Shown: piece after piece, positions 3,629-22,055 of the stretch
How positions within the stretch are numbered: the stretch's first letter is position 1
Layout of the letters: each line of letters opens with the position of its first letter
Assembly (NCBI RefSeq): GCF_026011795.1
Contig: NZ_BRVS01000026.1
Location: 1 to 64,000 of the forward strand
Source of the DNA: Arthrobacter mangrovi
GTDB taxonomy: Bacteria; Actinomycetota; Actinomycetes; Actinomycetales; Micrococcaceae
Direction of reading: 5' to 3'
Length of the DNA stretch: 64,000 bases
Notes under the pieces: generated by a model
Database searches by the model: none
Seen by the model: the letters and a program-made list of their open reading frames with translations, nothing else
What the model was told of the DNA's origin: nothing
Made by a program: the position numbers and the translations under genes

Positions 3629-3640
3629 ATTGTCTGCAAT
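3629..3640. promoter_or_regulatory. ATTG-N4-CAAT operator before the GntR gene
   Basis: ATTGTCTGCAAT is an inverted repeat 60 bp upstream of the GntR/FCD start. The same pattern recurs at 11620, 17616 and 22014, so autoregulation of the GntR gene is likely. GntR/FCD proteins typically bind short palindromes of this size. Confidence 0.6.
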
Positions 3641-3699
3641 GGACAGGCGGCGGTACTCCGACGCCTGCTAAGCAGCCAATGCCGAGAGCAAGGAAGCCC

Positions 3700-4560
3700 A
3701 TGGCACACCGATTCATCGAGCCGCTGGTCCAGGAGTCCACACCGGCCATCATCGCGCGCAAGCTGCGCTACGCCATCGGGCACGGCGAGCTCCAGCCGGG
3801 GCAGCAGCTGGGGGAGGCGGACCTGGCCCGCGAGCTGGGTGTCAGCCGGGGGCCGCTCCGCGAGGCGATGCAGCGGCTGACCCAGGAAGGCCTGCTGGTC
3901 AGCATCCGGAACCGCGGCATTTTCGTCACGGAACTCGGCCCGGACGATATCGCCGACATGTACCTGGCGCGCACCGCCGTCGAACGTGCCGCCGGCTTGA
4001 AGGTCATCGAGGTCGTCGGCATCCACGAGAAGGTGGCCGCCGCGTTGAGGACCGTGACGGACAAGATGGCGCAGGCCGTCGCCGCCGGCGAGCGGGGCAG
4101 CGTCCTGAGCGACCTGGACATCGAGTTCCACGAACTGCTGGTCAGGATGGCCGACAGCGGCCGGCTCTCGCGCATGCATCAGACGCTGATGACGGAGACC
4201 CGGATGTGCATGGCGGCACTCGAGGACACCGGCTACACCCCGGAGGACCGGCTGGCCGAGCACGAGGCCATCGCGGACGCGATCGGAGCGGCGAATGTGC
4301 CGCTGTTCCACAAGCTGCTGGCACATCACATGGACGATGCGGTGGAGAAGATTTCCAGCAGCATGCGGGCGCTCGAGAGCGCGCCGGAGAGCGCCGGGGA
4401 GAACGCGCCGCAGACCGCCGGAAAGAAGGCGCCGGGCAACGCAGAGGAGAACGCGCCGGAGAGCGCAGGAGAGAATGCGCCGGGGACCGCGGGGGAGAAC
4501 GACGGCGGCGTGGTGCCGGCGGCGGCCGCCAAAGGGGCGGCGCCGGAGCCGGTAGCGTAA
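3700..4560 (+). CDS. GntR-family regulator, FCD subfamily, with repetitive C-terminal tail
   Basis: A 286-residue DNA-binding regulator. Residues ~15-75 form the winged helix (ADLARELGVSRGPLREAMQRL, then the GLL.....RG wing). Residues ~85-220 form an all-helical FCD ligand domain with the Asp/His set expected for metal-dependent binding (the FHELLVRMADSGRL segment and a His pair near LLAHHM). The family normally ends near residue 225. Here an Ala/Pro/Glu/Asn-rich tail of five 8-residue repeats plus about 20 residues is appended. ATG 3700 follows AAGGAAG closely; an ATG at 3679 is possible but lacks a ribosome site. An ATTG-N4-CAAT repeat lies upstream and recurs before the catabolic operons, so this protein is the leading candidate for their repressor. 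Confidence 0.85.
   Translation: MAHRFIEPLVQESTPAIIARKLRYAIGHGELQPGQQLGEADLARELGVSRGPLREAMQRLTQEGLLVSIRNRGIFVTELGPDDIADMYLARTAVERAAGLKVIEVVGIHEKVAAALRTVTDKMAQAVAAGERGSVLSDLDIEFHELLVRMADSGRLSRMHQTLMTETRMCMAALEDTGYTPEDRLAEHEAIADAIGAANVPLFHKLLAHHMDDAVEKISSSMRALESAPESAGENAPQTAGKKAPGNAEENAPESAGENAPGTAGENDGGVVPAAAAKGAAPEPVA
4378..4497 (+). repeat. Five in-frame 24-bp repeats in the GntR gene
   Basis: Five tandem 24-bp units encode the 8-residue pattern [S/N/K]APxxAxx: SAPESAGE, NAPQTAGK, KAPGNAEE, NAPESAGE, NAPGTAGE (residues 227-266). Units 1 and 4 are almost identical, which suggests expansion by slippage or unequal crossing over. The tail is low-complexity and probably disordered. Confidence 0.85.
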
Positions 4561-4730
4561 CGGCCGGGGCCGAGGTCGGGCGGAGCCGACGAAGCCAAGG
4601 CCCTGGTCCCGGGTGAACCGGAAGGCGGGCTCCGGGCAGCTGGAAGGCGTAAGCTCCGTGTGAACCGGAACCTTGGAGTCACCGGGGCTGGAATCAACCG
4701 GAGCTGGAACAACCGGAGGCGGTGGGCCTG

Positions 4731-5336
4731 ATGGGCAGGGCGTCTGACGAATACAAGCGACGGCTGGAACGGGCTGCCGAGGTGCGTTCCGTGCGTGCCT
4801 CGGGCGGTAGCGCTGCGGAAGCGCAGGCCGCGGCGGCGGAGGAGGAGCTCGAGGAGAAGCGCCGCAAGCTTGGCAGCGCTGCGAGGGCCGACTACCTGAT
4901 CCGCGACGCGATGGCCCGCGGCGAGTTCGACAACCTGAAGTACGCGGGCAAGCCGATCCCGGGGCTGGGGCAGGGAAACGATCCGGACTGGTGGGTCAAG
5001 GGACTGATCCAGCGCGAGAACCTGACCGGGCTGGGACCCAAGGCGATCCTGCTGCGGACCGAGGATGCCGAACTCGACGGCACCTTGGACCGCGTTTACA
5101 CGGAGAAGCAGGTCCGCGAGATCGTCGAGGACTTCAACGCGCGGGTCATCGATGCCCGGCGCCAGCTCCAGGGCGGGCCGCCGGTCATCACCAAGACGCG
5201 CGACGTGGACGGCGAGGTCCGGCGCTGGCAGGAGCGCCGCGAGGCCCGCCGGGCGGCGCTGCCGCCGGAACCCGAGCCGGAGCCCAAGCGTCCTTGGTGG
5301 CGGCGGCTGCGGCGCGGGGACCGGCGCGGGGACTGA
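4731..5336 (+). CDS. DUF1992 (DnaJ-homologue subfamily C member 28-like) protein
   Basis: A 201-residue cytoplasmic protein. The central part (about residues 50-125) matches the DUF1992 domain: an Ile-Arg-Asp-Ala-Met-Ala-x-Gly-Glu-Phe-Asp-Asn-Leu segment, then Gly-Lys-Pro-Ile-Pro, and a Trp-Trp-Val-Lys segment. The first 45 residues are charged and likely coiled. The end is basic with Trp-Trp-Arg-Arg-Leu. GGAGG at 4715 serves ATG 4731 (11-nt spacer); GTG 4722 is a closer alternative. The biochemical role of the family is not established. The 160 bp before it carry several imperfect AACCGGA-type words and no gene. Confidence 0.8.
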   Translation: MGRASDEYKRRLERAAEVRSVRASGGSAAEAQAAAAEEELEEKRRKLGSAARADYLIRDAMARGEFDNLKYAGKPIPGLGQGNDPDWWVKGLIQRENLTGLGPKAILLRTEDAELDGTLDRVYTEKQVREIVEDFNARVIDARRQLQGGPPVITKTRDVDGEVRRWQERREARRAALPPEPEPEPKRPWWRRLRRGDRRGD

Positions 5337-5454
5337 CGGTGCACGGCTGACAGCGCACTGCTGACGGGGGGGAGTGGCGCGGGGAAGGACGGCGCGCGGC
5401 TGATAGGGCGGGGACTGGCGCAGGACCCGGGCTGCGGCGCGCGCCGGGCTCGGG

Positions 5455-6027
5455 TTAGGGCAGGCGCGTCTTCCGGAGCAGGGCTTGGGTGCCGGCGTGA
5501 TCGGGTTCCAGCGGGACCGGGCTTAGCAGGGTGGCCGGGCCGCGGCGCAGGATGCCGCCGGTCAGGGGCTGGCAGCGGATGCCGCCTCGTCCGCGCATGG
5601 CGGCGTGGGCTCCCGGGGCGAGCATCCGGTCCATCCAGGCGCAGGGGTGGGCCTGCCGGCCGCCGCGCAGGGTGACGGAGCCGCCGCCGGATTCCAGGGT
5701 GAATTCCTCGCCGACCAGCGGGGCGAGCTGGGCGCCCCTGAGGACCACATTGCGCCGGGCCAGGAGCGGGTCGAAGGGCGACGTCTCCAGCTCCGCGGCG
5801 ATGGATTCGAGGGCCTCGACGGCCATGAGCGTGATCGCGGCGTCCATGTGCGCGGCTTTGCCGAAGGAGCGGTCGCCGACGATGCCTTTCCCCGCGACCA
5901 CCTCGACCTGCTCGAGGTCCGAGGTGGGAACGTCGGCGGCGCCGTCGCGGGCGCGGCCGAAATAGGCATGGCCCGGGGAGACCAACAGGTGCAGGATCTC
6001 CACGGGATATGCGAACGTCGCCGTCAT
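5455..6027 (-). CDS. MOSC-domain protein
   Basis: A 190-residue stand-alone MOSC domain. The conserved cysteine expected to carry sulfur as persulfide is Cys129 in the HPCAWMD segment. The typical Gly-Ile-Val-Gly-Asp-Arg start (residues 48-53) and the Arg-Arg-Asn-Val-Val-Leu strand (91-96) are also present. MOSC domains occur in molybdenum-cofactor sulfurases and molybdopterin-dependent reductases such as YiiM; the physiological substrate here is unknown. ATG 6027 has no ribosome site; a TAAGCT -10-like hexamer lies 7 nt upstream, so the mRNA may be leaderless. It is the leftmost of several leftward genes but is separated from the MFS gene by about 260 bp of repeats. Confidence 0.82.
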   Translation of the reverse strand: MTATFAYPVEILHLLVSPGHAYFGRARDGAADVPTSDLEQVEVVAGKGIVGDRSFGKAAHMDAAITLMAVEALESIAAELETSPFDPLLARRNVVLRGAQLAPLVGEEFTLESGGGSVTLRGGRQAHPCAWMDRMLAPGAHAAMRGRGGIRCQPLTGGILRRGPATLLSPVPLEPDHAGTQALLRKTRLP

Positions 6028-6182
6028 GCTATCCAGCTTAGGACGGGCTGACTGTGGGTAGGTCGGCCTGGCGGAACGTGCGGCGCTGCGGGCTCGGCGA
6101 AAACGTCCGGCGCGACGGGCACGGCGAAGCCCGCCGCCGATCCGTGTCGGGATTGGCGGCGGGCTGAATGCCTATGCGTCGT

Positions 6183-6316
6183 CGTCGTGGAAGGCTCGGG
6201 GGGCGGGCTGTCGGCCTCGGGCGTGTGGAAGGCCTCGCGCCCGACTGCCGGCCTCGGGCGTGTGGAAGGCCTCGCGCCCGGCTGCCGGCCTAGGCGTTGT
6301 GGAAGGCCTCGCGGCG
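6183..6316. repeat. 37-bp tandem repeat copied from the 3' end of the MFS gene
   Basis: The segment GTGGAAGGCCTCGCGCCCG recurs with a 37-bp period. Full copies begin at 6221 and 6258, the third (6294) is the actual 3' end of the MFS gene, and a degraded copy starts near 6184. Downstream copies therefore repeat the codons for the last residues of the transporter, beyond its stop codon (6290-6292). Confidence 0.8.
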
Positions 6317-7747
6317 GGCGCGGGCGTCCTCGCGGTTGAGCTCGACGTGGCGAAGGCTGGGCAGCCCGGTGGATTCCGGGAGGCCGGGGAGTTCCTCGCC
6401 GCGCAGGGTGGCTTGGGAGGTCTCGCGCATGCAGAGGATGCTGATGAAGCCGATGACGCCGGCGATGGCCATGTACCAGCCCGGCACGAGCTGGTTGCCG
6501 GTGCTTTCGATCAGCTGGTTGGCGACGGTCTGGGACGGGCCGGCGAAGAACGCCGTCGAGAAGTTGTAGCCGATGGCGAAGCCGCTGTAGCGCACGGCCG
6601 TGGGGAACAGCGCCGGCAGGGTGGAGGAGACAGAAGAGACCAGGACCACCAGCAGCAGGCCAAGGACAGCGAGGCCGAGGAACTGCAGCAGCAGGTTGGG
6701 CACGCCGAGGAGCATGATGGCGGGGACCGAGAGCAGTGCATACCCGCCGGCGGCTGCCAGCAGCAGGGGTTTGCGGCCGACCCGGTCGGACAGCGCGCCC
6801 ATGGGCGGGATCGCCACCAGCATCAGGGCCATGATGCCTACGAGCATCCAGTTGCCCTGGGCCGTGCTGTGGCCCAGCTGGCCGCTGAGGTACGTCGGCA
6901 TGTAACCGAGGATCAGGTAGAACGCCACATTCAGCAGCACCACGAACCCGGCGAGGACCAGGATCTGGCGCCAGTTGTGGACGATCACGTGGCGCAGCGG
7001 GGAACGGGTGGTTTCGTGCTGTGCGGAAGCCTCGGAGAAAACCGGGGCTTCGCCCAGCCGGGTGCGGATCCAGAGTGCCGTCAGGCCGAGCGGGATCGTC
7101 AGCAGGAACGGAATGCGCCAGAGGCCGTCTTGGACGGCCTGCTCGCCGGCGACGGTGATGAGCGTGGTGCAGACGACGGCGGCCAGCATGAAGCCGACGG
7201 TGGTGCCGAACTCCAGGAAGGAGCCGAGGAAGCCGCGGCGGCGGTCCGGGGCGGATTCGGCCATGTAGACCGCGGCGCCGCCGTACTCGCCGCCGGCGGA
7301 GAAGCCCTGGACCAGCCGGCAGAGCAGCAGCAGGACCGGCGCCAGCGCCCCGACGGTCTGCAGCGTGGGCAGCAGGCCGATGGCGCCGGTGGCCAGGGTC
7401 ATCATCATCACGGTCAGCACCATGACCTTCTGCCGGCCCACCTTGTCGCCGAGCGGGCCGAGGATGATGCCGCCGAGCGGGCGGACCAGGAAGGACAGCG
7501 CGAGGGTAGCGAGGGTCAGGGTGACGCCGAGGCCTCCGTCGCCCTCCTGGGAACCGAAGAAGTTCACGGCCATGAAGATGGTCAGGTAGCCGTACACGCC
7601 GTAGTCGAACCATTCGACGGCGTTGCCCAGGGCGGAGCCGAGGATAGCGCGGTTGAGCGTGCGCTTGCCTTCGGGCGTGCCTGGTTCGGCGCCCGGCGCC
7701 GTTTTCGGCTCCGGCCGGTTGTTGCGCAGGGATTCGGAGGTGCTCAT
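6290..7747 (-). CDS. MFS transporter, metabolite:H+ symporter (MHS/ProP-like) family
   Basis: A 485-residue, 12-helix inner-membrane importer. The N-terminus has the MHS signature: Gly-Ser-Ala-Leu-Gly-Asn-x-Val-Glu-Trp-Phe-Asp-Tyr-Gly-Val-Tyr-Gly. Loop motif G-P-L-G-D-K-V-G-R-Q follows helix 2, and GFSAGGEYGGA lies in helix 4. The family includes ProP (proline, betaine, ectoine) and dicarboxylate or aromatic acid symporters. ATG 7747 has AAGGAG at the right distance. It is the last gene of the leftward EutD-like operon, so it may import the substrate degraded by its neighbours; uptake of an ectoine-like solute would fit ProP kinship but is inference. Confidence 0.88.
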   Translation of the reverse strand: MSTSESLRNNRPEPKTAPGAEPGTPEGKRTLNRAILGSALGNAVEWFDYGVYGYLTIFMAVNFFGSQEGDGGLGVTLTLATLALSFLVRPLGGIILGPLGDKVGRQKVMVLTVMMMTLATGAIGLLPTLQTVGALAPVLLLLCRLVQGFSAGGEYGGAAVYMAESAPDRRRGFLGSFLEFGTTVGFMLAAVVCTTLITVAGEQAVQDGLWRIPFLLTIPLGLTALWIRTRLGEAPVFSEASAQHETTRSPLRHVIVHNWRQILVLAGFVVLLNVAFYLILGYMPTYLSGQLGHSTAQGNWMLVGIMALMLVAIPPMGALSDRVGRKPLLLAAAGGYALLSVPAIMLLGVPNLLLQFLGLAVLGLLLVVLVSSVSSTLPALFPTAVRYSGFAIGYNFSTAFFAGPSQTVANQLIESTGNQLVPGWYMAIAGVIGFISILCMRETSQATLRGEELPGLPESTGLPSLRHVELNREDARARREAFHNA

Positions 7748-7863
7748 GAAGTGCTCCTTCACTCAAGCGGTCCGGACGGCGTTGTCCGGGCCGGGTAGCT
7801 GGCTAGGCAGCTGATGGGAGCCCCTTTGGACGGTGGCTCGGGTTGGATGGTGGCTGGTGCGGG

Positions 7864-9111
7864 TTACGGGCTTGGCGCCGCGTGGTGGTTGAGGGTCCGC
7901 AGGCAGAGGAGGGCGTAGGCGCGCGCGGCAATGGCCAGTTCGTCCAGACCGACCGATTCGTCCGCCTGGTGGGCCTGGTCGTTCAGGCCGCCCGGGCCGA
8001 GCACAATGGCAGGCACGCCGAAATCGCGGACGATGAAGCCGCCGTCGCACGCTGCCGTCCAGCCGCCAATCCGGGTGCTGCCCCCGGCGGCTTCCACGCT
8101 GGCCACGGCCGCCGCGACCAGCGGGTGGTCCGCCGGAGTGCGGAAGCCCGGCATCTGCATGCTGACGCGGCCGGCGACGGAGATCCCGTCCGTGTCGATG
8201 CCGGCTTCGCGGATCCGGGCCAGCAGGTCCGCGAGGATACGGTCCGGGTCGTCGTCCGGCATCAGGCGGCGGTCCAGGGAGAGGGAGCACGACGGCGCCA
8301 CCACCGAGGTGCCCTGGCCGCCTTCGATCAGTCCGACGTTCCAGCTGCCGGCTCCGAGGAGCTCGTCCTGGTCCCGCTGCAGCCGCTCGTGGTCCGCGCG
8401 GATGAGTTCGCAGATCCGCGCGGCGGCGGCGATGGCGTTGCGCCCGTCCGCCGGCCGGCCGGAGTGTGCGGGGCGGCCGGTGATTTCCAGTTCCAGGTAG
8501 CTGTCGCCGCGGCAGCCGACGACGGTTTCCAGGTCCGTCGGTTCGGCCACGACGCAGCCGAGGTAGTCATGCGGGAGGCTGGAGGCAGCCAGCGTGCGGA
8601 TGCCGAGGCCGAGGTCCTCTTCGTCCACGGTGCAGACCAGCGTGACGGGACCGGAGAGCGGGGCGTCCGACTGCTGGAGCGCCGCCATGGCGCCGAGGAC
8701 CGCGGCCAGCCCGCCCTTCATGTCCGTGGCGCCCCGCCCGTAGAGCCGGCCGTTGTCGACGGCAGCCTGGAAGGGCTGGCGGCTCCAGCCGGGCCCGGCC
8801 GGGACGACGTCGGAGTGTCCGAGGAACATCAGGCCGGGCGCGTCGCCGGCGGGGCCGGCGGGCAGCAACGTGACCAGGATGTTCGGGCGGTCGGGGGCCG
8901 CGGGCTGGACGGCGATGTCCAGCCGGAGTTCCCGGGCGGCCGCTTCCAGCACGGCGACGGTGGCTGCCTCGGTATCCCCGGGGTTCTCGCCGCCGGCCCC
9001 GATCAGCCGGGCGGCGAGACCGACGATCCGGTCCAGGTCGACGGCGTCGAGGATGGCCCGCTCGGTGGCGGTCAGCGCGCGCTGGGCTGCCTCGCCGGGT
9101 GCCGGCGCCAC
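7864..9111 (-). CDS. M20-family amidohydrolase/peptidase (ArgE/DapE/CPG2 type)
   Basis: A 415-residue zinc hydrolase. Metal and catalytic residues are visible: His99 and Asp101 (GHSDVVP), Asp130 (GRGATDMKGG), the Glu pair 164-165 (VDEED), and a C-terminal His near AHQADE. The dimerisation domain (about 195-310) has the Gly-Arg-Pro-Ala-His-Ser-Gly segment. M20 enzymes remove acyl groups from amino acids. Beside a EutD-like ectoine hydrolase, the logical job is deacetylation of N-acetyl-2,4-diaminobutyrate, a step done in known ectoine pathways by the unrelated EutE/DoeB enzyme. GTG 9111 directly follows the stop of the aminotransferase (TAG 9112-9114), so translation is probably coupled. Confidence 0.85.
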   Translation of the reverse strand: MAPAPGEAAQRALTATERAILDAVDLDRIVGLAARLIGAGGENPGDTEAATVAVLEAAARELRLDIAVQPAAPDRPNILVTLLPAGPAGDAPGLMFLGHSDVVPAGPGWSRQPFQAAVDNGRLYGRGATDMKGGLAAVLGAMAALQQSDAPLSGPVTLVCTVDEEDLGLGIRTLAASSLPHDYLGCVVAEPTDLETVVGCRGDSYLELEITGRPAHSGRPADGRNAIAAAARICELIRADHERLQRDQDELLGAGSWNVGLIEGGQGTSVVAPSCSLSLDRRLMPDDDPDRILADLLARIREAGIDTDGISVAGRVSMQMPGFRTPADHPLVAAAVASVEAAGGSTRIGGWTAACDGGFIVRDFGVPAIVLGPGGLNDQAHQADESVGLDELAIAARAYALLCLRTLNHHAAPSP

Positions 9112-10356
9112 CTACCGCGCTCCCGAGGAGGCGGCGGTGCCGAAGGACACCTCGGCGCGGGCCTTGTCGATGGCCGCGGCGAGGCGGACGATGCCGGTCT
9201 CGGTCCGCTCCGGCGACGAGGACGCGAAGCAGAGCCGGAAGGCGTCGGCGAAGCGGCCGGTCGGCGAGAGCGCCGGTCCGGGGATGAACGCCACGCCCTC
9301 GGCCAGCGCGACTTCGAACAGCCGCTGGGTATTGATCTTCGCGTCCTCGCCCTGCAGCGTCACCCAGAGGAAGAAGCCGCCGTCGGGGTCCGTGGTGCGC
9401 ACGCGGTCCCCGAGATGCCGTTCGATGCTCTCCAGCATGGCGTGCTTGCGGCCCTGGTACTCGCGGCGCAGCCAGGCCAGGTGGTCGTCCAGGCCGCCGC
9501 GCAGGATGAACTCGGCCACCAGGTGCTGGGCCGGCACGTTGGTGCAGGTGTCCATGGCCTGCTTGGCGTTGATGACCAGGTGCTGCAGCTCCGGGTCCGT
9601 CTCCACCCAGCCGACGCGCAGGCCGGGGGCGAGGATCTTGGAGAAGGTGCGCACCGAGAAGATCAGCGGATCGTCCGGGCTGAGCTGGTTGAAGGTGGGC
9701 ATTTCCGCGCCTTCGAACCGCAGCAGGCCGTACGGGTCGTCGTCGACAATCACGGCGTTCCACTGATGCGCCAGCTCCAGCAGCCGCTTGCGGCGCGGCA
9801 GCGAAAGCGTCGTCCCCGAGGGGTTCTGGAAGTTGGGGATGGTGTAGATGGCCTTGGGCGTCTTCCCTCGGGCCGCCACCAGCGCCTCCAACTGGTCCAC
9901 GTCCATGCCGTCCTCGTCGACCGGGACCTCCAGCAGCTCCGCGCCGTAGCTGAGCGCGGTGGCCGAGCCGTTGGTGTACGTCGGGCTCTCCACGACCACC
10001 AGGTCGCCGGGGTCGACGAAGATCTTGAAGGCCAGGTCCAGCCCCTGCATGCCGCCCGAAGTGATGGTGATGCGTTCGCGGGCAGTGGGATCCGCCGTCG
10101 TCGACAAATACTCGGTGAGCGCGTCGATGAGGTGCGGCTCGCCCTCCGTGGCGCCGTAGGTGTAGGAGGAGGCGTCGTAGACCGCGGCCGGCACGCTGTT
10201 GAACAGCTCCACGGGCACGGCTTCCTCCGCAGGGGCGCCCATCGCGAAGCGCACGATGTCGTGGGTCTGCTTGGCCAGCAGCGATGTGCTGGAGTCGATG
10301 ACGGAGCCGACCAGGTCGCCGGCCCGGGCCGCGAGGGGAAGGTTGCGCAGGGTCAT
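9112..10356 (-). CDS. PLP-dependent aminotransferase, fold type I (2-aminoadipate/MocR-like)
   Basis: A 414-residue class I/II aminotransferase. The Schiff-base lysine is Lys240 (RTFSKILAPGLRVGW). Other landmarks are the Asn-Phe-Gln-Asn-Pro-Ser-Gly loop (175-181), Asp-Asp-Asp-Pro-Tyr (205-209) and the final Arg segment (DAFRLCFAS). The sequence resembles LysN-type 2-aminoadipate transaminases and the catalytic half of MocR regulators, but there is no N-terminal GntR helix-turn-helix, so it acts as an enzyme. It lies between the EutD-like and M20 genes with 8 bp and 0 bp gaps, so it is part of the same operon. Likely substrates are diamino or alpha-amino acids from the pathway; not proven. Confidence 0.85.
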   Translation of the reverse strand: MTLRNLPLAARAGDLVGSVIDSSTSLLAKQTHDIVRFAMGAPAEEAVPVELFNSVPAAVYDASSYTYGATEGEPHLIDALTEYLSTTADPTARERITITSGGMQGLDLAFKIFVDPGDLVVVESPTYTNGSATALSYGAELLEVPVDEDGMDVDQLEALVAARGKTPKAIYTIPNFQNPSGTTLSLPRRKRLLELAHQWNAVIVDDDPYGLLRFEGAEMPTFNQLSPDDPLIFSVRTFSKILAPGLRVGWVETDPELQHLVINAKQAMDTCTNVPAQHLVAEFILRGGLDDHLAWLRREYQGRKHAMLESIERHLGDRVRTTDPDGGFFLWVTLQGEDAKINTQRLFEVALAEGVAFIPGPALSPTGRFADAFRLCFASSSPERTETGIVRLAAAIDKARAEVSFGTAASSGAR

Positions 10357-10364
10357 GGGAAGTC

Positions 10365-11570: not shown

Positions 11571-11590
11571 ATGGACTCCTCAACATGCTT

Positions 11591-11610
11591 TCCGTGATGT
11601 GCATCACGGA
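11591..11610. promoter_or_regulatory. Crp/GlxR-like palindrome before eutD
   Basis: TCCGTGATG-TG-CATCACGGA has perfect 9-bp arms and contains GTGA-N6-TCAC (11594-11607), the general Crp/GlxR consensus of actinobacteria. It lies between the ATTG-N4-CAAT operator and the GTG start, 20 bp upstream of the gene. It could add catabolite control or act as a repression site. A GTGATG...CATCAC pair also occurs at 38386-38404. Confidence 0.5.
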
Positions 11611-11619
11611 AAATAGTAG

Positions 11620-11631
11620 ATTGTAAACAAT
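11620..11631. promoter_or_regulatory. ATTG-N4-CAAT operator before eutD operon
   Basis: ATTGTAAACAAT inverted repeat, about 50 bp upstream of the EutD-like start. On the minus strand it contains TTTACA, a plausible -35 element. Matches the sites at 3629, 17616 and 22014. Confidence 0.65.
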
Positions 11632-11642
11632 GTACAGGGAGA

Positions 11643-16200: not shown

Positions 16201-16298
16201 GCGGCCAGCGCGGAGAGGACGGCGGGCCGGTCCGCGCCGGGGGTGCCGGCGGGACGGTCCGGAGTGCGGGTGGTGTCGGGGAGGACGGCTTCGCTCAT
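13230..16298 (-). CDS. FAD-linked oxidase fused to Fe-S domain (YdiJ/D-2-hydroxyglutarate dehydrogenase-like)
   Basis: A 1,022-residue two-part protein. Residues ~1-560 are a PCMH/VAO-type FAD domain (IGRGGGTSMAGNAIG; the ATVGGALGNDACGNHSVRYG segment) with its oxidase cap. The C-terminal ~460 residues contain 4Fe-4S ligands (CLSCKACSSDCPTG and an upstream CIGVGKC...CPSY) and two CCG-type motifs (DGCCG, TGCCGVAG). Length and order match YdiJ, which oxidises D-2-hydroxyglutarate, and related D-lactate dehydrogenases; electrons pass to the membrane chain. ATG 16298 is 8 bp past the gabT stop. Presence in the operon suggests that a 2-hydroxy acid is formed or removed during the pathway, perhaps by the D-2-hydroxyacid dehydrogenase at 22050 that shares the operator. 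Confidence 0.85.
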   Translation of the reverse strand: MSEAVLPDTTRTPDRPAGTPGADRPAVLSALAAAGIPADASPRRRAEYSFDASNYRIPPLAVVFPQSVEDVVAAVQACRATGTPLIGRGGGTSMAGNAIGPGVVLDFSRYLNRIHRVDEAAGTVSVEPGVVLAALSAEVERATDGRFTYAPDPSSKNRATVGGALGNDACGNHSVRYGRTSDHVEEIDVVTSDGARLTADAEGLRATDPEDTAAALRAAQLTAELKELAHANLAGFRTELGRIQRQVSGYHLANLLPEKGFNVARALVGSEGTCAVIVGARMKLVPKPASALLVCIGYQDVVEASRDIGTILEFSPSAVEGIDEAIVDTMRFRRGDGSVQGLPEGRAWLYVDLDGDDPDEVAAEAERLLARLRENGRMMDGRPVPDPVERASLWRVREVGAGLSSRLSTGGESWPGWEDSAVAPGKLPEYLADFRDLLAKHSLTGVMYGHLGAGCMHIRITYDLRSDAGRAVFRTFSREAAELVVRHGGSLSGEHGDGRARSELLPIMYSAAMLRAFSDYRRIWDPAGILNPGSLTEPDPLDGHLALAGVPERAWRTSFDLRPIGAGGSASAETDDPSDESAAGSNPWVHAVQGCIGVGKCRSDTAGVMCPSYRATRDEKDSTRGRARVLQDMVRGARSIEEGWRSEEVREVLDLCLSCKACSSDCPTGTDMATYKSEFFDHYYRGRRRPLSHYSLGWLPRWLKLTGRIAPLVNAALATPLGKLAAAAGGMTTKRALPKFAGASEWRKQVAAAGLQPGEHDGGARHRADRTSGVVLFVDTFTRGFRPEVAGAAARVLAGAGQPVECSADGCCGLTWISTGQLDTAKKLLRGAAEALDDGTDRPIVVVEPSCAAALRKDLPELVHTEQARRVAARVRSFAAHVGELAAGGWKPAPAEPLPEQVVLQTHCHEYAVFGAATQRQALAAVGIEGVTDATGCCGVAGNFGFEKQHYDVSMQVAEHALAPALRGSGPVVPVLTDGFSCAMQVNQLAPDRPGRHLAQLLDPGPDQTTEKQTTDQKDSPA

Positions 16299-16306
16299 GT
16301 GGTGTT

Positions 16307-17587
16307 TCAGGCTCCCGTCGCTGCCGCGGGGACGGCTCCGGTGGCGACGGCGACGGCCGCCTCGAAGCGTTCCAGGCCGGTGGTGATTTCCTCGGGCGTG
16401 ACCACGAGCGCCGGGATCAGCCGGACCACGTTGCCGGCCGGACCGCAGGTCAGTGTCAGCAGGCCCTGCTCGGTGGTGGCCTGCTGGACCGCGGCGGCCG
16501 TCGCGGCGTCCGGGGCGCCGTCGGCTCCGGTGAACTCGATGCCCTGCATCAGGCCCAGGCCGCGGACGTTGCCGATTTGCGGGAACCTGCCCTGGATCTC
16601 GAGCAGGCCGGCCTGCAGCTGCTCGCCGCGCAGCCGGGAATTCTCCACCAGTCCCTCTTCCTCCACTACTTCCAGCGTGGCGACGCCTGCCGCCGCGGAA
16701 ACGGCGTTGCCGCCGTAGGTGCCGCCCTGCGAACCCGGCCACGCCTTCGACATGGTCTCGGTGGACGCGGCGATCGCGGAGATCGGGAAGCCGGAGGCGA
16801 TGCCCTTGGCCGTGATCAGGATGTCCGGCGACGCGGCCGAGTGCTGGTGGCCCCAGAACCTGCCGGTGCGCCCGACGCCGGCCTGCACCTCGTCGAAAAT
16901 CAGCGTGATGCCGTGCCGGTCCGCGCGCTCGCGCAGCCCCTCCATGAAGGCCGGAGGGGTGGGCAAGTAGCCGCCGTCGCCCAAGGCCGGTTCGATCAGG
17001 AACGCCGCGGTGTCGTTCGGCGCGGTGCGGGTCTGCAGCAGGTAGTCCAGTTCCTTTAGGGCGAATTCGACGGCGGTGGCCTCGTCCCAGCCGTAGCGGT
17101 AGGCGTAGGGGAAGGCGGACATGTGCACGCCGGCCATGAGCGGAGCGAAGCCGGCGGAGAACTTGGTGCCCGCCGTGGTCAGCGACGCCGCCGCGACGGT
17201 GCGGCCGTGGAAGCCGCCCTGGAAGACCACGATGTTCGGACGCCCGGTGGCCATCCGCGCCAGGCGGATCGCGGCCTCGACCGCTTCGGAGCCGGAGTTG
17301 GCGTAGAAGACGGAGTCCAGCCCGGCCGGCAGCACTTCGCCCAGCTTCTCGGTCAGCTGCAGCAGCGGCTGGTGCATCACCGTGGTGTACTGCGCATGGA
17401 TGATCTTGCCGACCTGCTCCCGCGCCGCGGCGACCACCTTCGGGTGGCAGTGGCCGGTGCTGGTGACGCCGATACCGGTGGTGAAATCCAGGTAGTCCTT
17501 GCCGTCCGTACCGTAGATCCAGCTGCCGAGGGCGTGGTCGACGACGACGGGGGTGGCCTGCTTGAGCGCGGGGCTGAGTGAAGTCAT
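16307..17587 (-). CDS. Class III aminotransferase (GabT/DoeD-like)
   Basis: A 426-residue PLP enzyme of the ornithine/GABA aminotransferase class. The PLP lysine is Lys261 (ITAKGIASGFP), with Asp232 in FDEVQAGVGRTG and the Ser-Gly-Ser-Glu-Ala phosphate-binding segment (98-102). Class III enzymes act on omega-amino groups: GABA, ornithine, or 2,4-diaminobutyrate (DoeD in ectoine breakdown). ATG 17587 is used; it has no ribosome site, and the upstream TTGACA-N16-TACACC may give a nearly leaderless transcript. It opens a three-gene operon with the FAD/Fe-S dehydrogenase and SSADH. The ATTGTCAACAAT operator covers its -35 region. Substrate remains open between GABA and diaminobutyrate. Confidence 0.87.
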   Translation of the reverse strand: MTSLSPALKQATPVVVDHALGSWIYGTDGKDYLDFTTGIGVTSTGHCHPKVVAAAREQVGKIIHAQYTTVMHQPLLQLTEKLGEVLPAGLDSVFYANSGSEAVEAAIRLARMATGRPNIVVFQGGFHGRTVAAASLTTAGTKFSAGFAPLMAGVHMSAFPYAYRYGWDEATAVEFALKELDYLLQTRTAPNDTAAFLIEPALGDGGYLPTPPAFMEGLRERADRHGITLIFDEVQAGVGRTGRFWGHQHSAASPDILITAKGIASGFPISAIAASTETMSKAWPGSQGGTYGGNAVSAAAGVATLEVVEEEGLVENSRLRGEQLQAGLLEIQGRFPQIGNVRGLGLMQGIEFTGADGAPDAATAAAVQQATTEQGLLTLTCGPAGNVVRLIPALVVTPEEITTGLERFEAAVAVATGAVPAAATGA

Positions 17588-17592
17588 GCACC

Positions 17593-17657
17593 CATGGTGT
17601 AGGTCACATCTGTTTATTGTCAACAATCTGTTGATCGCGTAGCGTGGTGGCGTGGCC
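17593..17657. repeat. Promoter-region direct repeat, left copy
   Basis: About 65 bp resembling 21993-22055. The best part (17603-17657 against 22003-22055) matches at about four of every five positions. Both copies contain the operator ATTGTCAACAAT, TTGTCA-N17-TAGCGT and a GTG 6 nt after the -10. They flank the AraC cassette in direct orientation. Confidence 0.7.
17616..17627. promoter_or_regulatory. ATTG-N4-CAAT operator before gabT operon
   Basis: ATTGTCAACAAT, 29 bp upstream of the gabT start. On the minus strand it includes TTGACA (17623-17618), a perfect -35 box for the leftward operon. On the plus strand it includes TTGTCA, the -35 of a rightward promoter (TAGCGT at 17640). A bound repressor would block both. 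Confidence 0.65.
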
Positions 17658-17723
17658 AAATGGACCTCCGGACCTCGCGACCGCCGGCCCGAACCAGCGC
17701 GTCAGGCCCGTCATTCTCAATGA
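17652..17723 (+). pseudogene. Remnant 5' end of a duplicated leaderless gene
   Basis: A GTG at 17652 sits exactly 6 nt behind a TAGCGT -10 box, as at the real gene at 22050. It opens a 23-codon frame ending at TGA 17721-17723, with a start (VAKWTSGPR) faintly like the VTNRASEPR of the D-2-hydroxyacid dehydrogenase. It overlaps the end of the convergent AraC gene. Best read as the left-over start of a gene copy truncated when the AraC cassette arrived; a translated micropeptide is possible but unsupported. Confidence 0.35.
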
Positions 17724-18679
17724 ATCCGGCGGTACTCACTGGGCGTGGCTCCAAAAGCCGCCTTGAAGGTGCGGCTGAAATGCGCGGAGTCGAGGAAGCC
17801 CCAGCGCATCGCGATCTGGGTGATGGTCGCGGACCCCAGGGCGGGGTCCAGCAGGTCCAGCCGGCAGCGCTCCAGCCGTCGGGACTTGATCCAGCTGGTC
17901 ACGGTGGTTCCGGCCCCTTCGAAGAGGTAGTGGAGCCTTCGGGTGGACATGAAGTGGGCTGCGGCGATGGCCGCGGGGCCGAGGCCGGGGCTGCCCAAAT
18001 TCCGCTCTATGTATTCCTTGACCTCGGCCAGGGAGTCGGCCTTGTGGTCTGCCCGCTTGGCCCCCAAGCCGAGCTCGGTGTAGATCAAGGTATTGATGAG
18101 GTCGAGCGTATTGTGGGCCAGCATGATGCCTGCGTGGCCGGAAAAGCCATCGAGGTTGGCGGCTAACTCACCGAGGAACGGCCCGATTAGCCTGCCCATG
18201 CTGCTGCCCCGGGACAAGGTTGTCGCCGTGAGGGCTGCGACGCCTTCACTGGAGACGCTCAGGGCCTCCTGCGGGAAAACCATCACAAGGCTCTCGGCGC
18301 CGTCCTCGAACACGGCGCTGTAAGGCCGGCTGGTGTCATAGATGGCAATGTCGCCGGGGCCAAGCACGGCCTCACGGCCATCCTGCACGACCAGGCCTGC
18401 GCCGCCCAGCAGCATGCTGAGCTTGAAATATTTCGACTCGCCTTGGCAGATGAAGTCCTGCAGCCGGTCCACCTGGTGGGCGTCGGACTCAATGCGGGAC
18501 AGCGAGATGTCATCGAAACTGCGTCCGTGCAGCAGGGCATGGAAATTTTCGGGCCGGTTCGTGCTCACCTGCAGGCGTACGAAACGGTTGGACATCCGTT
18601 CCTGCCATTCCTCAAAGCTGTTCGCCTCAAACACGTTGGCTCCGCCGAGGGTGGAGACGGTCATTCTTTCGCTGGCCAC
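17717..18679 (-). CDS. AraC-family transcriptional regulator
   Basis: A 320-residue regulator. Residues ~1-190 form an AraC-binding-like (cupin) sensor with a Gly-Pro-Gly-Asp-Ile-Ala-x-Tyr-Asp strand. The last ~100 residues form the double helix-turn-helix, ending in the typical Ile-Ala-x-Arg-Trp-Gly-Phe-x-Asp-Ser-Ala-His-Phe-Ser-Arg-x-Phe-Lys motif and Pro-Ser-Glu-Tyr-Arg. The layout is like FeaR/AraC activators of amine or aromatic catabolism. GTG 18679 has AAGGAG five nt upstream. It is divergent from the CMD-HIBADH-MFS-EthD operon and is most likely its activator. Base composition of the gene and its promoter is visibly lower in GC than flanking operons. Confidence 0.9.
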   Translation of the reverse strand: MASERMTVSTLGGANVFEANSFEEWQERMSNRFVRLQVSTNRPENFHALLHGRSFDDISLSRIESDAHQVDRLQDFICQGESKYFKLSMLLGGAGLVVQDGREAVLGPGDIAIYDTSRPYSAVFEDGAESLVMVFPQEALSVSSEGVAALTATTLSRGSSMGRLIGPFLGELAANLDGFSGHAGIMLAHNTLDLINTLIYTELGLGAKRADHKADSLAEVKEYIERNLGSPGLGPAAIAAAHFMSTRRLHYLFEGAGTTVTSWIKSRRLERCRLDLLDPALGSATITQIAMRWGFLDSAHFSRTFKAAFGATPSEYRRIH

Positions 18680-18789
18680 GGTGCTCCTTGTTCCGGGACG
18701 CCACTCGCGTCTGTGAGGTACGTCATAGCAGCAGCCAGTCTAGCGAGGTGCATGCGCGAACGCCCGCCGCGTTGGTCACGGCAGGCTGA

Positions 18790-18855
18790 TTTGCACTCCC
18801 GGTCAACCCTTTTGCACTGCGGGGCACAACGGATCATCGCTTTGCAGCGGAGGGC
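18790..18855. promoter_or_regulatory. Three TTTGCA direct repeats, probable AraC-protein sites
   Basis: In the 283-bp region between the AraC gene and its target operon the words TTTGCACTCCCGG (18790), TTTGCACTGCGGGG (18811) and TTTGCAGCGGAGGGC (18841) lie in one orientation. AraC-type activators bind direct repeats, usually about 21 bp apart; here the first pair is 21 bp and the second 30 bp apart. A TGTGAGGTACGTCATA Crp-like word also occurs near 18711. Confidence 0.5.
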
Positions 18856-18962
18856 AAACGGCCTGCGCGCTCGGGCAAGCAGCCGCGGCGTGCCTCTCTC
18901 CATACTGGTCAACAAGGCAGCCGGCCACCCCGGCTGCAGGTCGAAGGATCAAAGGAATCAAC

Positions 18963-19355
18963 ATGATTAAAGACAGCCAATATGATGCCGGCCTGGAACT
19001 GCGCCGGCACATGTTCGGCGCCGCCGGCGCCGAGGACCAGGTGGAAAACACGACCGACCTCAACGACAAGATGCAGGAGGTTGTGACCAGGTACTGCTTT
19101 GGGGATATCTGGCAGCGTGAAGGCCTGGACCGGAAGACCCGGAGCCTGGTCACGCTGGCAATGCTGGTGGCGACGGGCCGCTCGCATGAAATCCGCATCC
19201 ACCTGCGGGGCGGGATCGCCAACGGATTGACTGAGGAAGAGATCCGCGAGCTGATGCTTCACTCCTTCCTGTACTGCGGGATTCCCGCGGCGATGGACGG
19301 GTTCCGTGCCGCCGAAGAAATCCTGGCGGAGTCCAGGGAGACAGCCAATGCGTGA
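18963..19355 (+). CDS. Carboxymuconolactone decarboxylase-family (CMD/AhpD-fold) protein
   Basis: A 130-residue single-domain CMD protein like 4-carboxymuconolactone decarboxylase PcaC. It contains the helical core with Asp-x-Trp-Gln-Arg-x-Gly-Leu-Asp-x-Lys-Thr-Arg-Ser-Leu-Val-Thr and the later His-Glu-Ile-Arg-x-His-Leu segment. The CxxC pair of AhpD peroxidases is absent (a lone Cys occurs near YCG), which favours a decarboxylase or isomerase-like role. AAGGAATCAAC precedes ATG 18963. First gene of the AraC-regulated operon; its stop overlaps the start of the next gene by 8 bp. The true substrate is unknown. Confidence 0.85.
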   Translation: MIKDSQYDAGLELRRHMFGAAGAEDQVENTTDLNDKMQEVVTRYCFGDIWQREGLDRKTRSLVTLAMLVATGRSHEIRIHLRGGIANGLTEEEIRELMLHSFLYCGIPAAMDGFRAAEEILAESRETANA

Positions 19356-20256
19356 AATAGTCGGGTTCATCGGGCTGGGAACCATGGGCGCACCGATGGC
19401 ACGAAATCTAGCCAAAGCCGGCTATGAGGTCGTTGTTTACGACGTCGATGCCTCCGTTCGCGAGCGGCTTGCCGAGGATATTGGCGGACAAGCGGCCGTG
19501 ACTCCCGCGGATTTCGCGGGGGCTCATGCCATTGTCACCATGCTGCCGACCAGCCGGATCGTTGCATCGGCACTGTTGGACTGGGATGGCGGCATTCCCG
19601 CGCATCTGGACGCCGGCGCGGTGGTCATCGACATGAGCTCCTCGGACCCGACTGAAACAGTCGACCTCGGCGAGCGGCTGGCAGAAGCCGGTGTCGCCCT
19701 TGTGGACGCACCGGTCTCCGGGGGCGTGCTGAAGGCCGAGGCGGGAAGCCTGGCCATCATGCTCGGCGGCGACAGCGAGGAAGCGCTCGAGCGGGCGCTG
19801 CCCGTGATCGAGGCCATGAGCGAGACGGTCTTCCGCACCGGCAAGTTGGGCAGCGGCCACGCGATGAAGGCGCTGAACAACTATGTGGCTGCAGCGGCCA
19901 CCACGGCGGCCTGCGAAGCGCTGATTGCCGGCGAACGGTTTGGCCTGGACCAGCAGACGATGGTCGACATCTTCAATGCCTCCACCGGGCAGAGCTGGGT
20001 GACGACGAATGTCCTGGGCCAGCACGTGGTCAGCCGCACTTTCAATACCGGCTTCGCGCTCGGGCTCTACGCCAAGGACGTGGGAATCGCCCGGCACTTG
20101 ACGGAGGCTTTGGACCAGCCCGCGCCGGTGTGCCACGCCGTCTCGGCCACGCTCAATGACGCGCTCGCGGACTTGGGCAATGTGGACCACGCGGCAGCGA
20201 TGACCTATTGGGAGCAGCTTCGGGCCGGTGCATCCGCGGTCCATTCGGAATCGTGA
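19348..20256 (+). CDS. 3-hydroxyisobutyrate dehydrogenase-family oxidoreductase
   Basis: A 302-residue NAD(P)-dependent beta-hydroxyacid dehydrogenase. The Rossmann start IVGFIGLGTMGAPMARNL (residues 4-21), the substrate segment DAPVSGG, the catalytic lysine in GHAMKALNN and the C-terminal KDVGIA motif are all present. Relatives include 3-hydroxyisobutyrate, tartronate-semialdehyde and related dehydrogenases. ATG 19348 with GGGAG upstream overlaps the stop of the CMD gene. In this cassette it would oxidise a hydroxyacid or reduce an aldehyde derived from the imported compound; which one cannot be told. Confidence 0.9.
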   Translation: MREIVGFIGLGTMGAPMARNLAKAGYEVVVYDVDASVRERLAEDIGGQAAVTPADFAGAHAIVTMLPTSRIVASALLDWDGGIPAHLDAGAVVIDMSSSDPTETVDLGERLAEAGVALVDAPVSGGVLKAEAGSLAIMLGGDSEEALERALPVIEAMSETVFRTGKLGSGHAMKALNNYVAAAATTAACEALIAGERFGLDQQTMVDIFNASTGQSWVTTNVLGQHVVSRTFNTGFALGLYAKDVGIARHLTEALDQPAPVCHAVSATLNDALADLGNVDHAAAMTYWEQLRAGASAVHSES

Positions 20257-20265
20257 GGAACTGAT

Positions 20266-21597
20266 ATGCAGACCCAAACAAACACAACTGCTGCAGGCAT
20301 CGACAACCGTCAGAAGAAGCGAGTCGCCCTGGCCAGTGCTGTCGGAACCAGTGTGGAGTGGTATGACTACCACGTCTACTCCATCGCTTCCGCGCTGGTG
20401 ATCGGCAAGCTGTTCTTCCCGGAGATCTCTCCGCTCGCAGGCACCATGGCGGCCTTCGCTACCTTCGCGGTCGGCTTCATCGCCAGGCCCTTAGGCGGCA
20501 TCCTTGCCGGGCATCTCGCGGACAGGATCGGCCGCAAGAGGGTCATGGTGATCACCCTGACCCTTATGGGGGCGGCCACCATGCTGATCGGCATGCTCCC
20601 TACGTACGCGCAGATCGGGGCAGCAGCACCCGTCCTGCTTGTCGTCCTGAGGCTCCTGCAAGGACTCAGCGCCGGCGGCGAGTGGGGCAGTGCATCGCTG
20701 ATGGCGGTGGAGCATGCTCCTGCCAACCAGCGCGGCCGCTTCGGCAACTACGTGCAGCTCGGCACGCCCGCCGGTATGTTCCTGGCGAACGTGGTCATTC
20801 TGGGAGCAACGTTCATGCTGGCTGAGGACCAGTTCGAGGCCTGGGGCTGGCGGGTCCCCTTCCTGCTCAGCGCCGTCATGGTCGTCATCGGCTTCGTCAT
20901 CCGCGCGAAAGTCGACGAAAGCCCGGTCTTCCAAGCGCTCGAGAAAAACTCGACCTTGGAGAAGATTCCGCTGGCCGAACTGTTGCGCAGCCATAAGACG
21001 CGGGTCGTCCTTGCGGTGCTGTCCTTCATCGGCAACAACGCAGTCGGCTACATCTTCCTGGCCTTTATGACCGCCTACGGCACCACCACCCTTGGCCTGG
21101 CACGGAACACCATGCTGAACGTGATGCTCGCGGGCTGCGTGACCTGGTTCGCCTCAATGATCTACTTCGCCAACCTCAGCGACCGGATCGGCAGGCATAA
21201 GGTCTACTTCCTGGGCTACGGCATCCTGGCTGTCTGGGCGATCCCCTTCTTCGCACTGTTCAACACCGCCAACGTCGGCCTGATCCTGCTGGCCGTGATG
21301 GTCCTGACCTTCGGCCTGGCCGCCACCTATGGTCCGCAGGCGGCATTGTTCGCCGAGCTCTTCCCGGCCAGGGTGCGGGCCAGCGGCGTCTCGCTCGCCT
21401 ACGCGGTGGGCGCGTGCCTGGGCGGAGGGTTCTCCCCGCTGATCGCTACCGCCCTGTTTGGTGCGACCGGGACCGTCTATGCGGTCTCCGCCTTTATGAT
21501 CGCCTTCAGCGTCATCAGTTTCGTTGCGATCGCAGCCTTGCGGCGGATCCCGAATTCATTCGCAGTTTCTCCGTCAGAAAGGAACGTCAATGCATAA
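20266..21597 (+). CDS. MFS transporter, MHS family
   Basis: A 443-residue, 12-helix symporter with the MHS hallmarks: Ala-Ser-Ala-Val-Gly-Thr-Ser-Val-Glu-Trp-Tyr-Asp-Tyr at the N-terminus, LADRIGRKRVMV in loop 2-3, and GLSAGGEWGSA in helix 4. Related proteins import aromatic acids, shikimate, alpha-ketoglutarate or compatible solutes. It follows the dehydrogenase by 9 bp and its end overlaps the EthD gene start. As the only transporter in the AraC cassette it is probably the importer of the cassette's substrate. Confidence 0.9.
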   Translation: MQTQTNTTAAGIDNRQKKRVALASAVGTSVEWYDYHVYSIASALVIGKLFFPEISPLAGTMAAFATFAVGFIARPLGGILAGHLADRIGRKRVMVITLTLMGAATMLIGMLPTYAQIGAAAPVLLVVLRLLQGLSAGGEWGSASLMAVEHAPANQRGRFGNYVQLGTPAGMFLANVVILGATFMLAEDQFEAWGWRVPFLLSAVMVVIGFVIRAKVDESPVFQALEKNSTLEKIPLAELLRSHKTRVVLAVLSFIGNNAVGYIFLAFMTAYGTTTLGLARNTMLNVMLAGCVTWFASMIYFANLSDRIGRHKVYFLGYGILAVWAIPFFALFNTANVGLILLAVMVLTFGLAATYGPQAALFAELFPARVRASGVSLAYAVGACLGGGFSPLIATALFGATGTVYAVSAFMIAFSVISFVAIAALRRIPNSFAVSPSERNVNA

Positions 21598-21895
21598 GCT
21601 CCTGGTCCTGTATCCCGAACCGGCCGACCGTTCAGCCTTCGAAGACTATTACGTGAATAAGCACTTGCCACTGGCCGCCAAGCTGCCTGGACTGAAAGCG
21701 TCCCGGTACTCCTTCGGCGTCGCGGGCGCGGAATCGCCTTACTTCGCCGTCTTCGAGGCCGAATTCGACAGCCACGACGACCTCGTAGCAGCCATGTCTT
21801 CGCCGGAAGGCCAGGCAGTCGCTGCCGATGTGCCCAACTATGCCCCGCAGGGCGCCGTCGTTGTCGACTACCCCGTGGAGCCCCTGGTGGGATAG
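21590..21895 (+). CDS. EthD-family protein
   Basis: A 101-residue dimeric alpha-beta barrel protein of the EthD family. It shows the Asp-x-x-Ala-Phe-Glu-Asp-Tyr-Tyr-Val-x-Lys-His-Leu-Pro-Leu-Ala-x-Lys start and the Phe-Asp-Ser-x-x-Asp-Leu-x-Ala-Ala-Met-x-Ser-Pro-Glu-Gly segment. EthD proteins accompany catabolic enzymes (for example in ether breakdown) but their chemistry is poorly known. ATG 21590 has AGAAAGGAACG upstream and overlaps the MFS stop (TAA 21595-21597). Last gene of the cassette; a terminator follows. Confidence 0.88.
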   Translation: MHKLLVLYPEPADRSAFEDYYVNKHLPLAAKLPGLKASRYSFGVAGAESPYFAVFEAEFDSHDDLVAAMSSPEGQAVAADVPNYAPQGAVVVDYPVEPLVG

Positions 21896-21913
21896 CTGCC
21901 GCAAAAGGACGTA

Positions 21914-21950
21914 AGCGGGTCCTGCCTGAAACGGCAGGACCCGCTTTTTC
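21914..21950 (+). terminator. Rho-independent terminator after the EthD gene
   Basis: Perfect stem AGCGGGTCCTGCC / GGCAGGACCCGCT with the loop TGAAAC, followed by TTTTC. Confidence 0.92.
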
Positions 21951-21992
21951 TTCCGTCCGGACGTGATCATGGCCGGGATCCGGCGCCTGCAA

Positions 21993-22055
21993 CATGGTGG
22001 CACCAGTCTGTCTATTGTCAACAATCGCTGGAGCGCGTAGCGTGGCGGGGTGACC
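21993..22055. repeat. Promoter-region direct repeat, right copy
   Basis: Second copy of the repeat at 17593-17657. Minus-strand elements of the gabT promoter (TTGACA, then CACCATG) are still recognisable here although no leftward gene follows, which marks this as duplicated sequence. Confidence 0.7.
22014..22043 (+). promoter_or_regulatory. Operator and sigma-70 promoter of the hydroxyacid dehydrogenase gene
   Basis: ATTGTCAACAAT (22014-22025) overlaps the -35 box TTGTCA (22015-22020). The -10 box TAGCGT is at 22038-22043 after a 17-bp spacer. The GTG start codon begins 6 nt later, so transcription probably begins at the codon itself (leaderless mRNA). Confidence 0.7.

Follow-up and report, generated by a model that had tools for sequence, protein, structure and literature searches.

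A 12-bp palindrome as the predicted operator of a GntR/FCD regulator at scattered catabolic genes of Arthrobacter mangrovi and other actinobacteria

Can one short palindrome define a regulon whose genes are only partly adjacent? The question is raised by a window of 64,000 nucleotides, positions 1-64000 of contig C26 in the 4.43-Mb draft genome G000 of Arthrobacter mangrovi (G000:C26:1-64000). An earlier note on this DNA had listed ATTG-N4-CAAT at 3629, 11620, 17616 and 22014, ahead of a GntR/FCD gene and of three catabolic operons, and had joined them into one probable regulon. With a probability of roughly 0.85, a stricter form of this palindrome, ATTGTNNACAAT, is predicted to serve as operator for the product of 3700-4560, a GntR regulator of the FCD type that would act as an autoregulated repressor of the catabolic units. 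The number of exact sites in related genomes follows the presence of this regulator, and most sites found near its relatives lie at the starts of a recurring set of catabolic genes. The regulator, the four sites and the units behind them are as follows.

3629-3640, no strand: operator before gntR, ATTGTCTGCAAT (motif search)
3700-4560, plus strand: GntR/FCD (FadR-subfamily) regulator (Pfam GntR and FCD; start from an alignment of relatives)
6290-7762, minus strand: ProP-like MFS transporter (NCBIfam 402 bits, cut-off 544)
7864-9111, minus strand: M20-family ArgE/DapE-like deacylase (NCBIfam matches below cut-offs)
9112-10365, minus strand: class I/II aminotransferase, start uncertain (Pfam Aminotran_1_2)
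10365-11570, minus strand: M24-family hydrolase, DoeA/EutD-like (TIGR02993 398 bits, cut-off 613; nearest structures 6twj and 6twk, DoeA)
11620-11631, no strand: operator before the M24/eutD-like operon, ATTGTAAACAAT (motif search)
11716-13233, minus strand: succinate-semialdehyde dehydrogenase (SSADH)-like enzyme (TIGR01780 588 bits, cut-off 646; best PDB match 3jz4)
13230-16298, minus strand: FAD/Fe-S D-2-hydroxyacid dehydrogenase of the D-2-hydroxyglutarate type, D2HGDH (matches to YdiJ-type and GlcD models, below cut-off)
16307-17587, minus strand: class III aminotransferase, like 4-aminobutyrate (GABA) transaminase (best PDB match 1sf2, 4-aminobutyrate aminotransferase, E 5e-86)
17616-17627, no strand: operator before the class III aminotransferase operon, ATTGTCAACAAT, a putative copy of the 22014 operator (motif search, alignment)
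22014-22025, no strand: operator before the D2HADH gene, ATTGTCAACAAT, overlapping TTGTCA-17-TAGCGT (motif search; promoter by eye)
22050-23042, plus strand: NAD-dependent D-2-hydroxyacid dehydrogenase, D2HADH (Pfam 2-Hacid_dh_C)

The minus-strand operon behind the 11620 site comprises the M24 hydrolase, the class I aminotransferase, the M20 deacylase and the ProP-like transporter. That behind the 17616 site comprises the class III aminotransferase, the FAD/Fe-S dehydrogenase and the SSADH-like enzyme, while the 22014 site precedes a plus-strand unit starting with D2HADH. All four listed sites are present and the window holds no further copies. Dinucleotide shuffles of the window gave a mean of 0.19 copies, and none of 100 reached four. 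The sites at 17616 and 22014 are identical, as had been claimed, both reading ATTGTCAACAAT, and the overlap with -35 boxes proposed for these two was recovered by eye. At 22014, the plus strand carries TTGTCA, a 17-bp spacer and TAGCGT ahead of the GTG at 22050; at 17616, a minus-strand TTGACA with a weak -10 box lies ahead of the ATG at 17587.

Searching the whole of G000 with ATTG-N4-CAAT gave 11 copies, compared with four for the control, the same pattern read backwards. Four of the 11 are those of the window, one lies at a new promoter on contig C30 and six are elsewhere. Among the six, C1:427875 (ATTGCATGCAAT) precedes a different FCD gene, and L003 and L004 are inside called genes. This looser pattern was dropped as a working motif because it includes such sites. 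As a separate observation, ATTGCATGCAAT (L002, about 1501-1512) is possibly the own operator of that different FCD regulator. Exact copies of the stricter ATTGTNNACAAT number four in G000, at 11620, 17616, 22014 and C30:15612, three of them in the window, and the backwards control has none; all four were judged to be promoter sites. The gntR site ATTGTCTGCAAT has one mismatch to ATTGTNNACAAT. It belongs to 13 one-mismatch copies in G000, the others being C26:112373 (no class given), the intergenic L005 and 10 in called frames, two of which (L020 and L021) are about 30 bp or less from the called start.

The C30 site lies between two divergent genes, one resembling EutA and arylmalonate decarboxylase (AMDase), the other coding on the opposite strand for a DUF3830 protein. 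The EutA-like gene is followed by a second frame that resembles EutA-like proteins by eye, and then by an amidase gene. By tying in this unlinked locus, together with dispersed loci in relatives, the motif defines the genes better than adjacency does, as the earlier note had expected. The DUF3830 protein (L022 6178-6702) strongly matches 3kop, a structure that is solved but uncharacterised.

Regulator matches at E 1e-30 were found in 22 of 99 genomes, G000 included. From these 99, a set of 30 was picked by hand: G000, nine other genomes of the genus, 12 with good regulator matches and eight without. G076 and G089, with weaker matches, were excluded, and G007 (37% match) was classed as lacking the regulator. 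The 19 genomes with the regulator have two to eight exact sites (mean 4.05) and the 11 without it have none or one (mean 0.36). The corresponding Mann-Whitney p of 2.8e-6 is a guide only, as the genomes are hand-picked and related. Over all 30 genomes there are 81 exact sites, compared with eight for the backwards control.

In the relatives, the same genes again have the site in front of them. Among the 10 genomes of the genus, all seven with a close regulator keep the gntR site, six as ATTGTCTGCAAT and G006 as ATTGTCGGCAAT; G001, G007 and G009 have no close regulator. The block GTTGTAAGATTGTCTGCAAT at this operator is identical in six of the seven aligned genomes and changed by one base in the other. 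A search for the M24 gene covered 18 of the 30 genomes and found it at 14 places in 13 of them (TIGR02993 389-428 bits, cut-off 613), with an exact site just upstream at 11 of the 14. This is the fair count, since the alignment of M24 promoters was picked for promoters bearing the site and gives none. The transaminase and D2HADH genes diverge around one operator in G002, G005, G006, G008, G023 and G053. The mapped stretches L075-L111 hold 58 exact sites, of which 43 are at the start of a core gene, defined as 60 bp inside to 300 bp upstream; core genes were assigned from the calls of a simple GC-position gene caller and BLAST.

Actinobacterial loci were also collected with an alignment of the regulator, the best 80 of at least 584 relatives being retained. 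Arthrobacter, Nocardia, Rhodococcus and Amycolatopsis are among the genera named in the locus titles, and the set overlaps the genomes of the relatives in at least three apparent pairs (L138/G005:C31, L145/G023:C43 and L152/G014:C7). These loci hold 162 exact copies of ATTGTNNACAAT, spread over 76 of them, and no copy of any of seven control palindromes of similar composition. A core-gene start is the location of 148 sites (91%), as against 1862 of 16000 random positions (11.6%) and 2082 of 6811 A+T-rich positions (30.6%) in the same loci. A chance origin of the sites was excluded by the shuffles, the genome-wide count and the control palindromes together.

In the 80 loci, a gene was scored as present if it lay in the fetched stretch, which reaches up to 10 kb per side and less at contig ends. 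At 40% identity or more, amidase and D2HADH are each found in 52 loci, EutA in 46, SSADH and class III aminotransferase in 45 each and DUF3830 in 43. The counts are lower for D2HGDH (18), M24 (15), class I aminotransferase (14), M20 (13) and ProP (11). The core is therefore composed of EutA, amidase, D2HADH, transaminase, SSADH and DUF3830, and the M24 arm is a partial addition to it. Loci with the M24 arm are mostly of Arthrobacter and Kocuria type, with others from Gordonia, Williamsia, Cryobacterium and Mobilicoccus. In the four loci viewed closely (L166, L169, L199 and L208), the core is arranged in divergons with operators between the genes. Frames resembling isocitrate/tartrate-type dehydrogenases by eye stand beside SSADH in L199 (1311-2537) and L208 (12748-13803).

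The protein encoded at 3700-4560 matches PF00392 (GntR) with 64.4 bits (cut-off 27) and PF07729 (FCD) with 57.1 bits (cut-off 24.3). Its FCD metal-site residues D140, H144, H188 and H210 are invariant in 16 aligned sequences, one of them a paralogue. We take Asp140 to be a metal ligand of the FCD domain. The histidines were matched by pattern to those of HypR (PMC6608401). FadR-subfamily operators consist of TKGT/ACMA boxes with 2-nt spacing, for example those of UxuR, MdcY and PrpR (Suvorova et al. 2015, PMC4494728), and ATTGTNNACAAT fits this palindromic consensus with its 2-nt centre. The comparisons place ATTGTNNACAAT at the starts of genes for D2HADH, class III aminotransferase, semialdehyde dehydrogenase, EutA/AMDase-like protein, DUF3830, amidase, M24 and gntR.

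These features suggest how the system may work. A dimer of the regulator would bind the palindrome, whose centre is CA/TG in 121 of the 162 sites, which places TTGACA inside the operator, ATTG[TTGACA]AT. As the palindrome mostly contains the -35 box, the bound regulator would repress, and in a divergon it could act on both genes; repression by blocking of the -35 box is the simplest inference. The invariance of the metal-site residues makes a small carboxylate a likely effector. Such a compound from the pathway would bind the FCD metal site (Asp140, His144, His188, His210) and free the repressor from DNA. With its mismatch, the gntR site would make autoregulation weaker and allow low steady expression.

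Several observations weigh against one operator read by this one protein. The 17616 and 22014 sites share one origin, the gntR site carries a mismatch, and, of the four exact copies in G000, those at 17616 and 22014 were covered by frames of the gene caller. The former is still counted as a promoter site because homology sets the transaminase start at 17587, and the latter because the opposing minus-strand frame, 21632-22057, looks spurious. Four of the 80 loci (L141, L191, L206 and L211) have no site, 14 of the 162 sites are off core-gene starts, and A+T-rich positions alone reach 31%. Among the M24 places, G003, G006 and G043:C73 have no site of their own; in G003 and G006 the M24 gene directly follows the SSADH gene. 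In L075-L111, 15 of 58 exact sites are off core-gene starts, some of them near other GntR genes (L093, L096 and L098). L093 and L096 have a GntR gene of about 30% identity within 4 kb of the 12-mer, and L098 has another, identified by eye, beside its sites. A GntR paralogue of 38-40% identity occurs in G002, G004, G005, G006 and G008, and an exact site precedes it in all of these except G006. By eye, ATTGTCAACAAT at L093 8382 and L096 7977 has similar neighbours, and the G002 paralogue (L092 6534-7507; 37% over the aligned part), with its upstream exact site, is beside amidase-EutA-DUF3830.

The paralogue in G002 and the GntR genes near exact sites in L093, L096 and L098 favour a real regulon bound by another of the 24 FCD proteins matched in G000, or by several jointly, with gntR as one target or one reader. 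As a type, the motif is generic to FadR-subfamily regulators (PMC4494728) and alone does not name the regulator, and two GntR paralogues share one operator set in Corynebacterium glutamicum (PMC2230225). Against this, the site number tracks the presence of the regulator at 3700, G000 has one E 1e-30 match to it, and none of the 24 FCD matches is on C30. The SRGPLREA recognition helix occurs in this protein only, among the 19 of the 24 from which the helix was extracted, and the 80 loci with sites were found using this protein. Another reader is unlikely, and gntR at 3700 is the foremost candidate. A little less likely again is that the regulator is an activator or acts both ways depending on the promoter. 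FadR-family proteins can activate, depending on site position (PMC6608401 and PMC2230225), but the 22014 site overlaps the -35 box of what looks by eye like a well-spaced promoter, and TTGACA lies within the operator at the 121 sites with a CA/TG centre. That TTGACA lies within most sites, and that A+T-rich 12-mers are themselves enriched at core-gene starts (31% vs 12%), would also suit sites that are mere -35 elements of A+T-rich promoters, palindromic by chance. This is very improbable given that 91% of exact sites are at core-gene starts, that the exact motif is about 10 times denser in genomes with the regulator, that the control palindromes are absent from the 80 loci, and that the four exact G000 copies do not show the full palindrome at many unrelated promoters.

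For the operator of the GntR protein at 3700, the idea of one regulon of three catabolic operons and a regulator is supported by conservation of the sites and by co-occurrence of the regulator, although 17616 and 22014 do not count as independent. The proposed regulator is likewise favoured by site number, with the reservation that the motif is generic and G000 has 24 FCD proteins. The predicted regulon includes the units of the window and reaches further than had been proposed, to the C30 locus, while the cassette between the twin sites is probably outside it. The features that bear on the history of these sites are listed here.

17609-17672, plus strand: duplicated D2HADH promoter and 5' end fragment, holding the 17616 operator (52 of 64 columns identical to 22007-22069)
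17726-21885, no strand: inserted cassette with AraC, CMD, HIBDH-like, MFS and EthD genes (alignment with the G009 cassette)
23053-24228, plus strand: GDSL lipase-like gene directly 3' of D2HADH (Pfam)

The D2HADH promoter and 5' end, at 22007-22069, recur at 17609-17672 with 52 of 64 columns identical, and independence of the two sites was rejected on account of these duplicated flanks. Judging by the alignment, the sites at 17616 and 22014 descend from a single ancestral operator and have kept the 12 bp, although the flanks have changed. In the window, AraC, CMD, HIBDH-like, MFS and EthD genes within 17717-21895 separate the transaminase from D2HADH. A cassette standing by itself in G009 (L237), a genome with no exact sites and no regulator match, aligns with the inserted stretch, 17726-21885, over 4191 columns at 79% DNA identity. 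A close AraC relative (83%) was found only in G009 among the ten genus genomes, and the cassette is not in the transaminase/D2HADH divergon of the six relatives checked. The ancestral aminotransferase/D2HADH operator would have been duplicated when the AraC cassette came between the genes. In G003 (L075 4424-4749) two operators lie 314 bp apart and about 147 columns (79%) match the EthD end of the cassette; this remnant is likely a scar of cassette loss. The cassette genes are probably not regulon members, because the same cassette stands alone in G009 without sites or regulator. Membership of the GDSL lipase-like gene is doubtful; no GDSL match above 80 bits was found in the mapped stretches L075-L111.

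The regulon may degrade an amide or omega-amino-acid compound by way of the transaminase and the semialdehyde dehydrogenase. The core suggests an amide or omega-amino acid that ends in a semialdehyde, which is a guess. As to a GABA/succinate-semialdehyde route, the structures nearest to the class III aminotransferase and the SSADH-like enzyme, which share one operon, are those of a GABA transaminase and an SSADH; the SSADH-like enzyme misses its cut-off (588 vs 646 bits). The class III aminotransferase has Asp at the position taken to be that of GabT Glu211. No substrate could be singled out from the plasmid neighbourhoods of DUF3830 and M24 relatives.

True catabolism of ectoine or 5-hydroxyectoine in a Gram-positive form would account for the presence here of counterparts to eutA, eutD, atf and ssd (PMC5924519; PMC13188858), namely the EutA-like and EutD-like proteins, the class III transaminase and the SSADH-like enzyme. 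On a Priestia plasmid, eutB, a cyclodeaminase gene and an M20 gene accompany an M24 relative, and the M24 operon here includes a ProP-like transporter. Much speaks against it. The DoeA match is below cut-off (398 vs 613 bits), as is the match of the C30 EutA-like protein to the EutA model TIGR02990 (95.5 vs 318 bits). EutE (TIGR02994) has no match anywhere in G000; an M20 protein is encoded in the M24 operon. The eutB, eutC and eutE models gave no match among the unit proteins scanned, eutE alone being sought genome-wide. Only 15 of the 80 loci have M24 within the stretch fetched, G020 and G072 hold core genes with no M24 match genome-wide, and D2HADH, amidase and DUF3830 are unexplained by an ectoine route. 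EutE-like genes of G002, G005, G006, G008 and G030 were not accepted into the pathway; the G002 and G030 copies are, by eye, among Rieske-oxygenase genes. Because of the missed cut-offs, the absent EutE match and the patchy M24 arm, true ectoine catabolism is considered doubtful. It is an equally tentative guess that an ectoine-like osmolyte may enter the pathway through the M24/M20/aminotransferase/ProP arm in the subset of genomes that have it.

The predicted GntR/FCD operator resembles those of FadR-subfamily regulons with GT-2nt-AC sites (PMC4494728) in its palindrome, its 2-nt centre and its single site per divergon; neither the present gene set nor its operator appears in the passages of that paper that were consulted, supplementary lists aside. 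The proteobacterial EnuR (MocR/GabR) ectoine regulon (PMC5924519) similarly controls eutA, eutD, class III transaminase and SSADH-like genes, but the effector domain of EnuR is aminotransferase-like, whereas the present regulator has an FCD domain and a single operator joins units dispersed over the genome. Among putative Gram-positive ectoine clusters (pucR-eutBCD-atf and abgB-thrA-adh; PMC13188858), a Priestia example also pairs M24, M20 and a transporter. These Bacillota clusters have PucR, in contrast to GntR/FCD here, and the available part of that paper does not describe the EutA/amidase/D2HADH/DUF3830 core. GntR1 and GntR2 of C. glutamicum are alike in being two GntR paralogues on one operator set; theirs is a TNGTNNNACNA-type operator at gluconate genes (PMC2230225). 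HypR of Streptomyces coelicolor (PMC6608401) is an FCD protein with three metal-binding His, an autorepressor and a repressor at dispersed promoters, but its operator is CTNTGC(A/C)ATGTCAC and its targets are hydroxyproline genes.

Neither the operator (sought as ATTGTCAACAAT, and as TTGTCAACAA with GntR) nor the gene set was found in open-licence papers, supplementary regulon tables excluded, so a prior listing is possible. The same literature yielded nothing on DUF3830, on a GntR/maleate/amidase set or on an ectoine/GntR/eutA/amidase set. We put at even odds that the near-invariant operator defines a widespread actinobacterial catabolic pathway not yet described, with amidase and D2HADH set against an EutA/AMDase-like pair and gntR, and SSADH against the class III transaminase and DUF3830, and that the cassette at the central operator left two kept copies. 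If so, DUF3830 gains a functional context and the window gives an example of a regulon acquiring a second operator through insertion. A cassette can then enter a shared promoter while the operator survives on both sides, with the caution that identical sites in one genome may not be independent evidence. By linking the unlinked G000 locus with the dispersed loci of relatives, the operator provides a parts list for a nutrient pathway. Beside gntR, the stretch 702-3427 of the window contains a PucR/AdeR-like gene divergent from an alanine dehydrogenase gene, an order also found in L076, L080 and L091.

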